Of a stretch of 64,000 nucleotides of DNA, positions 6,686-10,425 are shown in pieces. Under the pieces are notes generated by a model. The model made no database searches, was not told the DNA's origin, and saw only the letters and a list, made by a program, of their open reading frames with translations. The translations under genes and the position numbers were made by a program. Positions within the stretch are counted from its first letter, which is position 1; each line of letters starts with the position of its first letter. The stretch comes from Janibacter indicus (GTDB lineage Bacteria > Actinomycetota > Actinomycetes > Actinomycetales > Dermatophilaceae), in NCBI RefSeq assembly GCF_900176385.1, contig NZ_FWXN01000004.1, positions 124,001 through 188,000 on the forward strand, in the 5' to 3' direction.

Positions 6686-7411
6686 TCAGCCCAGCGCCAC
6701 GAGTGCCACGGGGTCGGTCGTCGGCTGCTGGGACCCTCCAGTGGGCTCGACGCTCAGGCCGACGCCCTCAGCTGCGGTGACATCACCCTCGAGCACCATC
6801 TCGCCGTCGGTGCCGGGCACCATCCCGGCGGAGGTCATGGCGCCCGAGGGGTCCTGCAGCCAGGCCTGGTAAGCGTGCCCGTCGCCGGGGTCGGCGAGCC
6901 CTTCGACGCGCAGCACGGCCTTGCCCATGCGCTCGGAGCGCACGACCCGGACCGTGCCGCCGTCGGCGGTGGTGACCTCCTGGGTGCGCGCATCGGGTGC
7001 CGCCGCGACCTCCTCGGAGATGCTCGTGGTGGCGCGGTCGACGACCTGCCAGGTGACACCGCCGCCGACGAGGAGGGCGGCAGCCGCGGCGAGGGCGACC
7101 CAGCGGCGCCGCGCCCGCCGGCGAAGGGAGAGCACCTGCGCCTCGTCCTCGGCGTGGGTGGGCGTGGGGTGCGCGGCGGGCGGCGGGTCCTGACGGGTCT
7201 GAGCGGCCCGGGCCAGGATGTCGTCCCGCAGTGACGGCGGCGGGGTGACCGCGACCGTCTCGGCGAGCAGCGGAGTGACCGCGCCGAAGGAGTCGACCTC
7301 GTCGCGGCAGGCCGGGCAGCGCGCGAGGTGCTCCTCGAAGTCGGCGCGCTCGTCGTCGTCGAGGGCGTCGAGGGCATAGGCCCCGGAGAGGCTGTGCAGG
7401 TCGTCGCTCAT
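6686..7411 (-). CDS. rskA: anti-sigma-K factor RskA
   Basis: RskA is a membrane anti-sigma factor that holds SigK inactive until regulated proteolysis releases it. The 241-residue protein has an N-terminal zinc-binding anti-sigma domain with His28-x3-Cys32-x2-Cys35 (HLARCPAC), a single transmembrane helix at about 104-126, and an extracytoplasmic RskA domain that ends in [15 protein letters not shown] and [14 protein letters not shown], conserved features of the family. Its ATG overlaps the sigK stop by four bases, so the pair is translationally coupled. It is the last gene of the minus-strand operon that starts at 10297. Confidence 0.9.
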
Positions 7412-8034
7412 GGGGTCACTCCCAGCTGGTCCCTCAGACGGATGAGTCCGTCGCGGATACGTGTCTTGGCGGTGCCGAGTGGTAGGTCGAGGAGGCTCGC
7501 GACCTCCGTGTGGGTGTAGCCGCCCAGGTAGGCCAGGCTCACGGCCTCGCGCTGGTTGGCGGTCAGCCCGTCGAGGGCCGAGCGCACCCGGGCGGCCTCG
7601 ATGCGGGCCGTCGCCGTCTCCGCGGTGGTGTCGAAGTCGACCTCACGGGACCGGGCGTGCCAGCCGTCGTCGCGGACCGCGGCGGCTTGGCTCGAGCGCA
7701 CCCGGTCGATGGCGCGGCGGTGGGCCATCGTGAGCAGCCAGCCGATCGCCGACCCGCGCCGCGGGTCGAAGTGGCTGGCCCGGCGCCACACCTCGAGGTA
7801 GACCTCCTGGGTCACTTCCTCGGACTGCGCCGGGTTGCGCAGGATCCGCAGGACGAGACCGTGCAGTCGGGGAGCTGTCTCGTCGTAGACGGCGGCGAAG
7901 GCGACCTCGTCCCCCTTCGCCACCTGCTTGAGGCGGTGGGCGAGCCGGTCGTGGCCCCCGTGGGCAGGCTCCCGCTCGGAGGCCGTGCGGGCGTCCGGCG
8001 GGTCCTGCTCACGGGGAGGGGGCACGAGGTCCAT
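7408..8034 (-). CDS. sigK: ECF sigma factor SigK
   Basis: A 208-residue extracytoplasmic-function sigma factor. Region 2 (about 35-100) includes AFAAVYDETAPRLHGLVLRI and EEVTQEVYLEVWRRA, which bind core polymerase and the -10 element. Region 4 (about 145-200) is a helix-turn-helix with NQREAVSLAYLGGYTHTEVA and LPLGTAKTRIRDGL, which reads the -35 element. The assignment to SigK rests on the paired RskA and on the MPT70-type lipoprotein next door; in Mycobacterium tuberculosis SigK drives mpt70 and mpt83. SigK-like promoter motifs stand before two genes of this operon, so autoregulation is likely. Confidence 0.9.
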   Translation of the reverse strand: MDLVPPPREQDPPDARTASEREPAHGGHDRLAHRLKQVAKGDEVAFAAVYDETAPRLHGLVLRILRNPAQSEEVTQEVYLEVWRRASHFDPRRGSAIGWLLTMAHRRAIDRVRSSQAAAVRDDGWHARSREVDFDTTAETATARIEAARVRSALDGLTANQREAVSLAYLGGYTHTEVASLLDLPLGTAKTRIRDGLIRLRDQLGVTP

Positions 8035-8048
8035 GGTGACGGATCAGG

Positions 8049-8705
8049 TTACTTCTTGGCGGTCGGCATGAGGACCGAGTCGACGATGTAGACCGTGGCA
8101 TTGGCGGTCTGGACGTCTCCGCAGACGACGTTGGCCTCGCCGACGGTGAAGTCCTCGCCCGAACCCTTGACGGTGATCTTGTCGCCGGCGAGGGTCTCGT
8201 GGGTGCCGGCGAGGTCCTCGGGAGCGAGGCGGCCCTCGACGACGTGGTGGGTGAGCACCGTCGTCAGCAGGCCCTTGGGGTCACCCATCGCCTTGTCGAG
8301 CGTGGCCTGGTCCATGGCGGCGAAGGCGTCGTCGGTCGGGGCGAAGACGGTGATGTCCTCGGAGGAGTTGAGCGTCTTGGCCAGGTCGGCCTCGGTGACG
8401 GCCTTGACGAGCGTCTTGAGGAGCGGGTTGTTGCTCGCGGCGGTCGCGACCGGGTCGGTCGACATGCCGTCGAAGGAGCCCTTGCCGTCCTCGGGCACGG
8501 ATGCGCACCCCTCGCCGAAGGGGGCGCCCGCCTCGGCGGCGTCGGTGGACGAGGACATCGAGTCGTCGGACCCCATCGACTCCGAGCTGCTCGACGAGCT
8601 CGCGGAGCTGCCGGTGTCGGTGTCGTCACCGCAGGCGGTGAGGGCGAAGGGGAGCGCGGCTGCGGCGAGCAGGGCGACGGTGCGGGTCGTGGTCATGCGG
8701 GACAT
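8049..8705 (-). CDS. fasciclin-domain lipoprotein, MPT70/MPT83-like
   Basis: The 218-residue precursor has a signal peptide with lipobox LTAC (Cys at about 26), a Ser-rich linker and one FAS1 domain (about 75-215). FAS1 hallmarks are ITVFAPTDDAF (H1 box), the His-containing LTHHVVEGRL and VYIVDSVLMP (H2 box). Several stretches match what I remember of mycobacterial MPT70: GCASVP, DPVATAASNNP and VVCGDVQTANATVY, including the two Cys that form its disulfide. The start at 8705 has GGAGG six bases upstream. In M. tuberculosis this protein is a SigK target, and a matching promoter lies at 8746-8772. The role is probably cell-surface adhesion or envelope interaction (inference). Confidence 0.9.
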   Translation of the reverse strand: MSRMTTTRTVALLAAAALPFALTACGDDTDTGSSASSSSSSESMGSDDSMSSSTDAAEAGAPFGEGCASVPEDGKGSFDGMSTDPVATAASNNPLLKTLVKAVTEADLAKTLNSSEDITVFAPTDDAFAAMDQATLDKAMGDPKGLLTTVLTHHVVEGRLAPEDLAGTHETLAGDKITVKGSGEDFTVGEANVVCGDVQTANATVYIVDSVLMPTAKK

Positions 8706-8745: not shown

Positions 8746-8772
8746 ATTCGGAGCCGTCGGGCGTGCGGATGG
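8746..8772 (-). promoter_or_regulatory. SigK-type promoter before the fasciclin gene
   Basis: Read on the minus strand, CCATCC (8772-8767) is followed after 15 bases by CCGAAT (8751-8746). The published mycobacterial SigK consensus, as I recall it, is CCATCC with 16-17 bases and CCGAAT, so both hexamers match exactly and the spacer is one base short. The -10 box ends 40 bases before the start codon. It fills the short gap between the oxidoreductase stop and the fasciclin gene. Confidence 0.65.
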
Positions 8773-8773
8773 G

Positions 8774-10297
8774 TCAGTCCGTCACGGTCACGGCGATCGA
8801 GTGCCAGCCGGTGGCGCCGGCGGGGAAGGGAGTGGCCTCCTGACGCGTCTGCACCTCGCCCGTGCCGTCGGTGGCGCGCACGGTGAGGTCGTGCCGACCC
8901 GGGGTCGCGTTCCACGGCAGGAACCACTGGCGCCAGCAGTCGACGCCCGCCTCGGTGCCGAGCGTCGCCCGGCGCCACTCGCCGTCGTCGACGCGCACGT
9001 CGACCCGCTCGATGCCGCGGCGCTGTGCCCAGGCGACGCCGCCGATGACGGTGCGGCCGGGCGGGATGCGACGCAGCGCCCGGGGCGTGTCGATCCGGGC
9101 CTGGGTGCGCACCCGGCCGTCGGTCGCCCAGTCGCGGTCTGTCCAGTAGGCGCTCGCCGCGTCGTAGCGGGTGACGGTCATGCGGGTGAGCCACTTCGTG
9201 GCGCCGACGAAGCCGTAGAGCCCGGGCGTGACGAGGCGGGCGGGGAAGCCGTGCTCGCGGGGCAGGGGGGCGCCGTTCATGCCGACGGCGACGAGCGCGT
9301 CGCGGTCGTCGAGGAGGGCCGAGAGCGGCGTCGAGATCGTCATGCCGTCGGTCGACGTCGAGAGCACCTGCAGGTCGGGGTCGCGTGGGTCGGTGTCGAG
9401 TCCGGCGCGGGCGAGCAGCTCGCGAGTGGGCACGCCGAGCCAGCGGGCGTGGCCGATGTAGGGGCCGCCGACCTCGTTGGAGACGCAGTTGAGGGTGATG
9501 TCGCGCTCGACCATCGGCGTGGCGAGCAGCTCGTCGATGTCCATCGTCACCTCACGTGGCACGTCACCGTCGATCGTCAGCGACCACTCGCCGGGGTCGA
9601 CGCGCGGGGCGAGGAGTGCGGTGTCGATCCGGTAGAAGTCGGCATTCGCCGTGACGAAGGGGGAGATCCCGGACTTGCCGACGTCCACCCCCTTCGGCAG
9701 GGCGGGCAGGGGCCGCGTCGGTCGCGGCAGGGTGAGCGTGGGCGGCGCGGACCGGGCGACGAGCGCCTGCCCTGAGCCGCCGATCGCCAGCGCGGCGGCG
9801 CCGGTGCCCCCGAGGGCGACGACCCGACGTCGCGTCGGGTGCGTGGGGTCGGCGTGGGCGGAGCCCGAGGGCAGCACCCGGGCGACGAGCAGGTCGAGCG
9901 TCAGGATCCCGACGACGGCCGCGACGAGGGCGGGGAGCCAGGCCACGTCGTCGGCGGTGGGCCGCAGCACCGCGGCCGCGCCGGCGAGGCCGGTGAGCAG
10001 CAGGAGGAGCAGCGTCGAGGCCAGCCGGGAGCGTGGCCGCACGGTGCCCGCGAGGGCCGCGAGGAGCAGGGAGACGACGGCGACCGAGCCGATGAGGATC
10101 GGCTTGTCGGCCGTGCCGAAGGTGCCGACCGCCCACTCCTTGACCGGGGTCGGGGTCGCGTCGATGACCTGGCTGCCGACGGCGAGGACCGGCGACGACG
10201 CGGGGGAGGTCAGGGCCGCGACGAGGTGGGCAGCGGCCGTGCCGAGGCCTGCCGCGAGGACGCCGCAGGCGGCGGGGAGTGCGGACCGAGAACTCAT
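8774..10297 (-). CDS. membrane-anchored molybdopterin-dependent oxidoreductase (sulfite-oxidase fold)
   Basis: The 507-residue protein starts with about four transmembrane helices (about 5-30, 64-84, 90-112, 118-140). An RRR-containing segment and a fifth hydrophobic helix (about 160-178) follow, then a periplasmic-type molybdopterin-binding domain of the sulfite oxidase family. The Cys in ITLNCVSNEVGGPYIGHARW fits the molybdenum ligand. LPREHGFPARLVTPGLYGF and KWLTRMTV are conserved family stretches, and about 400-505 looks like the Mo-co dimerisation domain. The substrate is unknown. It is first in the operon with the fasciclin gene, sigK and rskA, and the SigK-like promoter sits so close that the mRNA is probably leaderless. 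Confidence 0.88.
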   Translation of the reverse strand: MSSRSALPAACGVLAAGLGTAAAHLVAALTSPASSPVLAVGSQVIDATPTPVKEWAVGTFGTADKPILIGSVAVVSLLLAALAGTVRPRSRLASTLLLLLLTGLAGAAAVLRPTADDVAWLPALVAAVVGILTLDLLVARVLPSGSAHADPTHPTRRRVVALGGTGAAALAIGGSGQALVARSAPPTLTLPRPTRPLPALPKGVDVGKSGISPFVTANADFYRIDTALLAPRVDPGEWSLTIDGDVPREVTMDIDELLATPMVERDITLNCVSNEVGGPYIGHARWLGVPTRELLARAGLDTDPRDPDLQVLSTSTDGMTISTPLSALLDDRDALVAVGMNGAPLPREHGFPARLVTPGLYGFVGATKWLTRMTVTRYDAASAYWTDRDWATDGRVRTQARIDTPRALRRIPPGRTVIGGVAWAQRRGIERVDVRVDDGEWRRATLGTEAGVDCWRQWFLPWNATPGRHDLTVRATDGTGEVQTRQEATPFPAGATGWHSIAVTVTD

Positions 10298-10304
10298 GGA
10301 GGGG

Positions 10305-10332
10305 GTTCGGCGCTGCCCGGGGTGACGGATGG
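10305..10332 (-). promoter_or_regulatory. SigK-type promoter before the oxidoreductase-fasciclin-sigK-rskA operon
   Basis: On the minus strand CCATCC (10332-10327), 16 bases, then CCGAAC (10310-10305) match the mycobacterial SigK consensus except for the last base. The -10 box is followed by seven bases and then the ATG at 10297, so transcription should begin at or beside the start codon. Because sigK is in this operon, the site implies positive autoregulation. Confidence 0.65.
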
Positions 10333-10390: not shown

Positions 10391-10425
10391 CGAAGGGGGG
10401 AGGTCCACCGGACCTCCCCCCTTCG
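10391..10425. terminator. terminator downstream of icd
   Basis: A perfect 16-bp stem (10391-10406 with 10410-10425) with a three-base loop lies 13 bases after the icd stop on the minus strand. It should end the icd transcript before it enters the SigK promoter region. As at 5542, the stem ends are CGAAGGGG and CCCCTTCG. Confidence 0.8.

Follow-up and report, generated by a model that had tools for sequence, protein, structure and literature searches.

A conserved SigK-type promoter before a sulfite-oxidase-fold molybdenum enzyme gene points to a wider SigK regulon in Janibacter and its relatives

The stretch of Janibacter indicus DNA analysed here (64 kb; hereafter the window) contains two SigK-type promoter sites, one before a gene coding for a sulfite-oxidase-fold molybdenum-cofactor oxidoreductase (SOE) and the other before a fasciclin-sigK-rskA unit, and both sites are real and very probably functional. 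Comparison with related genomes revealed that the site before the SOE gene comes and goes with sigK; SOE thus probably belongs to the SigK regulon as a conserved target whose promoter is fixed in position and probably leaderless. Together with a sortase pair located elsewhere in the genome, SOE and fasciclin-sigK-rskA would be the outputs of a SigK/RskA stress module, a proposal that we hold with considerable confidence on comparative sequence grounds. The features of the locus are the following:

10391..10425, no strand: strong hairpin in the gap that separates the SOE promoter from the isocitrate dehydrogenase gene (-40.3 kcal/mol, z -5.4)
10305..10332, minus strand: SigK-type promoter site 1, an exact match to CCATCC-N16-CCGAAC, kept in relatives at 7-8 nt
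8774..10297, minus strand: SOE gene, sulfite-oxidase-fold molybdenum-cofactor oxidoreductase (PF00174, solved relatives, hydrophobic segments)
8746..8772, minus strand: SigK-type promoter site 2, an exact match to CCATCC-N15-CCGAAT
8049..8705, minus strand: MPT70/MPT83-like fasciclin lipoprotein gene (PF02469, 1nyo, N-terminal hydrophobic segment)
7408..8034, minus strand: sigK, ECF sigma factor without cysteines (PRK09646; best solved relative 4nqw SigK)
6686..7411, minus strand: rskA, anti-sigma-K factor, full length at 241 aa (PF10099, PF22618; one hydrophobic segment)

Profile and solved-structure matches agreed with the original prediction that the operon holds sigK, rskA and an MPT70/MPT83-type lipoprotein gene. 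The SOE gene starts with the ATG at 10297 and codes for 507 residues with a Pfam Oxidored_molyb domain (PF00174); among the best 80 of 528 confirmed relatives, the closest named genomes with the enzyme, from Janibacter, showed 66-87% identity. Its stop codon is separated from the fasciclin gene by a gap of 68 nt that contains site 2. The fasciclin protein (PF02469) has MPT70 as best solved relative (1nyo, 133 bits), keeps both MPT70 cysteines in that alignment, and carries a lipobox, LTAC, read by eye. The sigK gene begins 14 nt past the fasciclin stop codon and codes for a protein with the Pfam domains Sigma70_r2 and r4 that scored above the curated cut-off of PRK09646 (257.1 bits, cut-off 226) and matched SigK as best solved relative (4nqw, 160.9 bits). 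The rskA gene overlaps the end of sigK by 4 nt, and its product matched RskA_C (PF10099, 84.5 bits) and RskA_N (PF22618, 34.5 bits), both above cut-off.

The pattern initially proposed for the sites, CCATCC-N15-17-CCGAAY, had exactly two matches in the window, both on the minus strand, a number never reached in 100 shuffles (mean 0.09). Site 1 (10332-10305) ends 7 nt 5' of the SOE ATG, in agreement with the predicted CCATCC-N16-CCGAAC seven bases before the oxidoreductase start; the CCATCC-N15-CCGAAT predicted before the fasciclin gene was likewise found as an exact match, site 2 (8772-8746), which ends 40 nt 5' of the fasciclin ATG (8705). The form found in relatives is slightly wider than the initial pattern: CMATCCG, a spacer of 15 or 16 counted from CMATCC, and VCGAAY. 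In the whole genome (3.42 Mb) the initial pattern gave 3 matches against 3 for a backwards control, so the raw count was rejected as proof by itself. With VCGAAY as second hexamer and a spacer of N15-16, CCATCC gave 3 matches against 0 backwards and CAATCC gave 2 against 0. The argument for the sites is carried, at the level of sequence, by placement and conservation. One CAATCC-type sequence, CAATCC-N16-ACGAAC (L164, G000:C9:188103-188130), lies 40 nt before a flavin amine-oxidase-like frame, a possible further target; the second CAATCC-type genome match was inside an Mrp/Nuo-like coding region and was taken as chance.

No sigma-70 consensus promoter was found between 6400 and 12800. A scan of the same interval for terminators with a T-run gave two terminator-like matches, both inside the isocitrate dehydrogenase gene, and made no call at the hairpin at 10391..10425, a possible transcription barrier that may protect SOE against read-through. 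The word CCCCTTCG (with CCCCCTTC and CCTTCGTC) occurs at 34 places in the window against 3.24 expected (about 10-fold over-represented; maximum in shuffles, 11), and inverted copies of the CCCCTTCG-type word at 10391-10398 and 10418-10425 are the arms of this hairpin 5' of the SOE promoter.

Conservation of the site before SOE was analysed in a named sample of 80 loci that carry an SOE relative (the top 80 among 528 confirmed ones) and in 30 loci fetched from the host family, 68 of whose 79 genomes had an SOE match. SOE starts were set by position relative to the window protein, ignoring the motif, and the 250 nt upstream were scanned. Left out of the counts were L109, whose upstream sequence is missing, and, in the host family, the partial or broken SOE matches of G029, G033, G038, and G054 and the genomes with distant matches only. 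Allowing at most one mismatch to CMATCC/VCGAAY, a site preceded SOE in 27/30 named and 24/25 family loci containing sigK (scrambled motifs: mean 0.6, maximum 3, and mean 0.3, maximum 2, respectively), that is, in 51 of the 55 sigK-linked SOE loci when two duplicate loci are included. At exactly 7-8 nt it was present in 18/30 and 23/25 of them (scrambled: mean 0.02, maximum 2, and mean 0.03, maximum 5). In the union of both samples, which includes the window's own locus (L004) and excludes the duplicates L005 and L007, a site at 7-8 nt was found in 39/53 loci with sigK, 5/6 with fasciclin only, and 2/48 with neither, counts that are not independent events since the loci are related by descent. 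The hexamers were therefore found to be conserved upstream of orthologues in relatives, a comparison set beforehand as the refuting test, and this lends good support to control of both units by SigK.

Site-positive named SOEs included those of Janibacter, Knoellia, Phycicoccus, Nocardioides, Kineosporia, Quadrisphaera, Phytoactinopolyspora, and one Acidimicrobiia assembly. A site at 7-8 nt was missing from 14 of the 53 sigK-linked SOEs, and the branches of Williamsia and Arthrobacter have theirs 31-124 nt upstream of SOE. Among named SOEs whose loci lack both sigK and fasciclin, 8/44 showed a match within 250 nt and 1/44 at 7-8 nt; the orphan locus L048 has a site, and three Microbacterium orphans (L067, L072, and L077) have a match at 180 nt. 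SOE paralogues from the same genome, taken from 20 host-family genomes, had a site at 7-8 nt in 1/20 and a match with at most one mismatch anywhere in the scan in 8/20, one at the start codon (L145) and another in L158. The far-upstream sites of paralogues L144, L147, L148, L154, L156, and L163 were discarded, being inside the end of the preceding coding gene, whose peptide we take to be the end of RdgB/HAM1. In a tree of 127 SOEs, most leaderless-type SOEs fell in one clade of 48, and further sigK- or fasciclin-linked SOEs were distributed over three other branches, some with the site further upstream.

The presence of the site was then set against the presence of sigK in the whole genome. 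A SigK match (threshold 1e-30) was detected in 48 of the 79 host-family genomes (39 of 50 SigK candidates being scored in G007), and the family loci were completed with 28 further SOE loci. Genomes with a SigK match had the site at 7-8 nt in 38/45 SOE loci (24/26 in the first set and 14/19 among those added), and genomes without one had it in 1/13 (1/4 and 0/9); the nine added loci of the latter contained no match with at most one mismatch anywhere in the 250 nt. Six of these 13 loci are paralogue-type SOEs (47-51% identity), a type in which the site is seldom present anyway; orthologue-type SOEs (at least 54% identity) in six SigK-less genomes had the site in 1/7. The sole exception, L012, comes from G044, whose assembly has about 160 contigs. 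As for the five misses among the 19 added loci, L239 and L243 are without a readable N-terminus, L246 has no site near the start, and L248 and L251 are paralogue-type SOEs. In G023, G018, and G047 the SOE site is present and sigK lies at least 40 kb away or on another contig. These results indicated that the SOE site accompanies sigK at the level of the genome and not merely of the neighbourhood. In G038, of the same genus, a leaderless-type SigK site was also observed just before the apparent start of sigK (C15:4203-4240), and the SOE match of that genome is in three pieces on another contig (C60:6-1476).

The same data bear on two other explanations of site 1. The motif could be a chance occurrence or a neutral relic, as the genome-wide frequency of the initial pattern, no higher than that of its backwards control, would allow; against this, a fixed distance is kept across genera with scrambled controls near zero, and the site is lost together with sigK, making this explanation extremely improbable. 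Alternatively, another ECF sigma factor with a similar recognition sequence could drive SOE, the sigK neighbourhood being incidental. Loci bearing the site without sigK in the fetched flank (the 5/6 fasciclin-only and 2/48 orphan loci) and the site-bearing SOE of G044, which has no SigK match, would be compatible with this. However, fasciclin-sigK-rskA is preceded by the same sequence, the mpt70 promoter is reported to respond to SigKs of several species (PMC7509140), and the site follows SigK over genomes (38/45 loci versus 1/13). We consider a different sigma factor quite improbable, and recognition of site 1 by SigK is the reading adopted in what follows.

At ECF promoters, transcription is expected to start about 7-8 nt past the second hexamer. 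With a spacing of 7-8 nt this expected start falls on the ATG, so that a leaderless SOE mRNA is predicted. Strong conservation outside the motif was seen in the 25 loci that share N15 and a gap of 7 nt: 92% for G at -28, 96% for G at -16, 92% for C at -5, and 84% for C at -1; near-invariance inside the hexamers partly reflects how these loci were chosen. The start codons of site-positive SOEs, which are computed, were ATG in 44/46 cases and GTG in two. A Shine-Dalgarno-like word preceded 1/46 site-positive SOE starts, 6/61 site-negative SOE starts, and 21/36 fasciclin starts; as site-negative SOEs seldom have the word either, this measure alone does not separate the SOE classes. Fasciclin genes accompanied by sigK had a site upstream in 25/31 named and 25/25 family loci, at 34-120 nt with one exception at 3 and one at 213, and none at 7-8 nt. 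Most probably, then, the fasciclin mRNA has a leader and the SOE mRNA is leaderless, as predicted from these distances.

It could still be that SigK uses these sites and that the SOE mRNA carries a short leader, either because the start codon lies further downstream or because transcription starts a few bases upstream. The SOE starts are computed ones, and leadered versions do exist, as in the branches with the site 31-124 nt upstream, which means that leaderless starts are not universal. On the other hand, the distance of 7-8 nt recurs in 46 plus 14 more loci with starts chosen blind to the motif, nearly all site-positive starts are ATG (44/46), and the window SOE, inspected by eye, has no further in-frame ATG before its first hydrophobic segment. 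A short leader is thus unlikely, and a leaderless SOE mRNA is preferred. Across the order, an exact site followed at 7-8 nt by RTG gave 64 matches in 54 of 198 genomes, against 4 for the backwards control. Thirty of the 64 were fetched for gene identity: six open SOE relatives by BLAST (L139 aligning from residue 162 only), and eight, from other families of the order, start alike 7 nt past exact sites (L129-L132 and L134-L137). The two of these eight tested by Pfam, L129 and L134, share DsbD_TM and thioredoxin-like domains with DipZ. The fetched set also comprised a sortase (L117), the unrelated GtrA-like L115 and LuxR-like L127, and several short, chance-looking frames.

The third exact match to the initial pattern in the genome lies outside the window, about 70 kb away (contig C28, 204935-204908; locus L003), 58 nt before the gene of a secreted protein of 263 residues. 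This protein carries at its C-terminus a GVDTG-type sorting signal (28.9 bits, cut-off 29.0); downstream there is a sortase gene whose product, a fragment ending at the locus end, scored 141.8 bits with the class F model (cut-off 166) and above cut-off with Pfam Sortase. Relatives of the GVDTG protein were found in 37/79 host-family genomes, with a sortase match in 28/30 of the loci fetched. The site was kept in 26 of these 30, the Janibacter locus itself included (250 nt, one mismatch allowed; mean of 0.69 and maximum of 4 with scrambled motifs), and was missing in L168, L182, L188, and L191. In 4/34 genomes that have both, sigK is at most 2.2 kb from the gene of the GVDTG protein. This third target independently supports the view that a SigK regulon is marked by the sites.

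SOE contains four strongly hydrophobic segments, a twin arginine (156-157) before a weakly hydrophobic fifth, and the Mo-ligand cysteine at 271. The twin arginine and the cysteine are present in 55/55 sigK-linked SOEs (window and two duplicate loci included), and the only conserved histidine of the membrane part is H24, in the first segment (43/55). SOE probably carries out redox chemistry that depends on molybdenum and acts on sulfur compounds outside the membrane; the repair of oxidised methionine is one possibility. That SOE is simply a sulfite dehydrogenase and not a methionine-sulfoxide type of repair enzyme is a credible though not the favoured alternative: the best solved relatives of SOE are sulfite oxidases (2a9d), and the best curated matches are sulfite dehydrogenases (SoxC, 106 bits; SorA, 100 bits; then SorT, 78.6 bits), ahead of MsrP (46.5 bits). 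All these scores, however, are far below the curated cut-offs (420, 600, 570, and 207, respectively). In sulfite oxidase, sulfite is bound by arginines of a CAGNRR motif, and in the alignment these arginines face a glutamate and a gap in SOE (CVSNE in the window protein), which speaks against a plain sulfite dehydrogenase.

SOE has parallels in two known systems. Sco3746-type Sec/Tat molybdenum proteins (PMC5449189, a table of which lists a Phycicoccus homologue) have, like SOE, several membrane segments and a molybdenum domain outside, and share with it a twin arginine before a weakly hydrophobic last segment, a likeness by description; in contrast, the heme histidines predicted in segments 2-4 of Sco3746 (PMC5449189) are not conserved in SOE. 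MsrPQ, the Gram-negative system for methionine-sulfoxide repair (PMC5449189), also links a molybdenum enzyme exported by Tat to an electron path in the membrane, although SOE scores far below the MsrP cut-off.

The window SigK has no cysteines at all, and a cysteine pair matching C133/C183 of the tubercle-bacillus SigK, identified through its 50-residue spacing in the 4nqw alignment, was present in 5/31 named relatives. RskA was complete in 30 of the 31 named loci, the remaining one being cut by a contig end. Disulphide control has been published for the tubercle-bacillus SigK in a paper that also reports many cysteine-less SigK members (PMC7509140), and therefore the cysteine pair does not define the SigK group. 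Since the window SigK is cysteine-less, this published control cannot operate in it, and with the disulphide sensor absent, any redox link lies in the products of the regulon. The original prediction of a wider, possibly redox-linked role for SigK was in this way upheld in part: the enzyme target is conserved and its output redox-like, but SigK itself is without a cysteine switch. The signal of SigK/RskA has been described as obscure (PMC9861118); the loss of RskA protein under UV in a soil actinobacterium (PMC8965627) and the induction of MPT70/83 homologues by light in one mycobacterium (PMC9861118) could serve, by analogy, as leads to it.

In the mechanism we propose, RskA, a membrane anti-sigma factor with one span, would hold SigK until an envelope signal frees it, and RNA polymerase with the freed SigK would start at CMATCCG-N14-15-VCGAAY sites. 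Site 1 would fire the SOE gene, giving an mRNA that is most probably leaderless, with the A of the ATG as first base. Site 2 would fire fasciclin-sigK-rskA as one leadered transcript, and since this transcript carries sigK, the switch would amplify itself. The third site, about 70 kb away, would fire the sortase-anchored surface protein and the class F sortase. The outputs would reach the surface by different routes: Sec and Tat for SOE, lipoprotein export for the fasciclin protein, and sortase for the third.

Part of this picture is already known. According to PMC7509140, the mpt83-sigK-rskA cassette goes back to a description in 2008, including a SigK site that even Gram-negatives keep; the same source covers the occurrence of the cassette outside mycobacteria as well as SigKs that lack cysteines. 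The cassette of actinobacteria and Yersinia (PMC7509140) has the same order of fasciclin, sigK, and rskA, and a SigK site; the Janibacter locus adds an upstream molybdenum enzyme with its own SigK site, and its SigK is cysteine-less although RskA is full length. The SigK of the tubercle bacillus also drives fasciclin antigens (mpt70 and mpt83) together with dipZ (PMC9861118, PMC3078919), and DipZ-like genes follow exact sites in some of the relatives studied here; neither an SOE nor a sortase is in the target lists consulted in those two sources. The new part is SOE as a SigK-linked gene, which Veyrier 2008 may already show. Our literature search, which did not extend to the 2008 study of SigK evolution, found no paper linking SOE or the sortase pair to SigK, none joining fasciclin and molybdopterin with an anti-sigma or ECF sigma factor, and none joining ECF19 with fasciclin; SigK, regulon, mpt70, and molybdopterin are mentioned together in PMC5885015.

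A broader reading, which we offer as speculative and rather unlikely in its full form, is that the older, non-mycobacterial role of SigK would be a response to envelope oxidation whose three outputs are each exported by a separate route, and in which a deeply conserved leaderless mRNA codes for the enzyme, the sigma factor sits on a leadered self-amplifying mRNA, and the MPT70/83 antigens of tubercle bacilli are the remnant of an enzyme-centred regulon. More directly, the fixed distance between promoter and ATG in actinobacteria of two classes offers a clean case of leaderless versus leadered targets in one regulon. MPT70 and MPT83, targets of SigK, are major antigens, and a conserved enzyme target, found in bacteria that are harmless, offers a measurable chemistry for working back to the signal; the conserved SOE site points to an overlooked part of the job of SigK.
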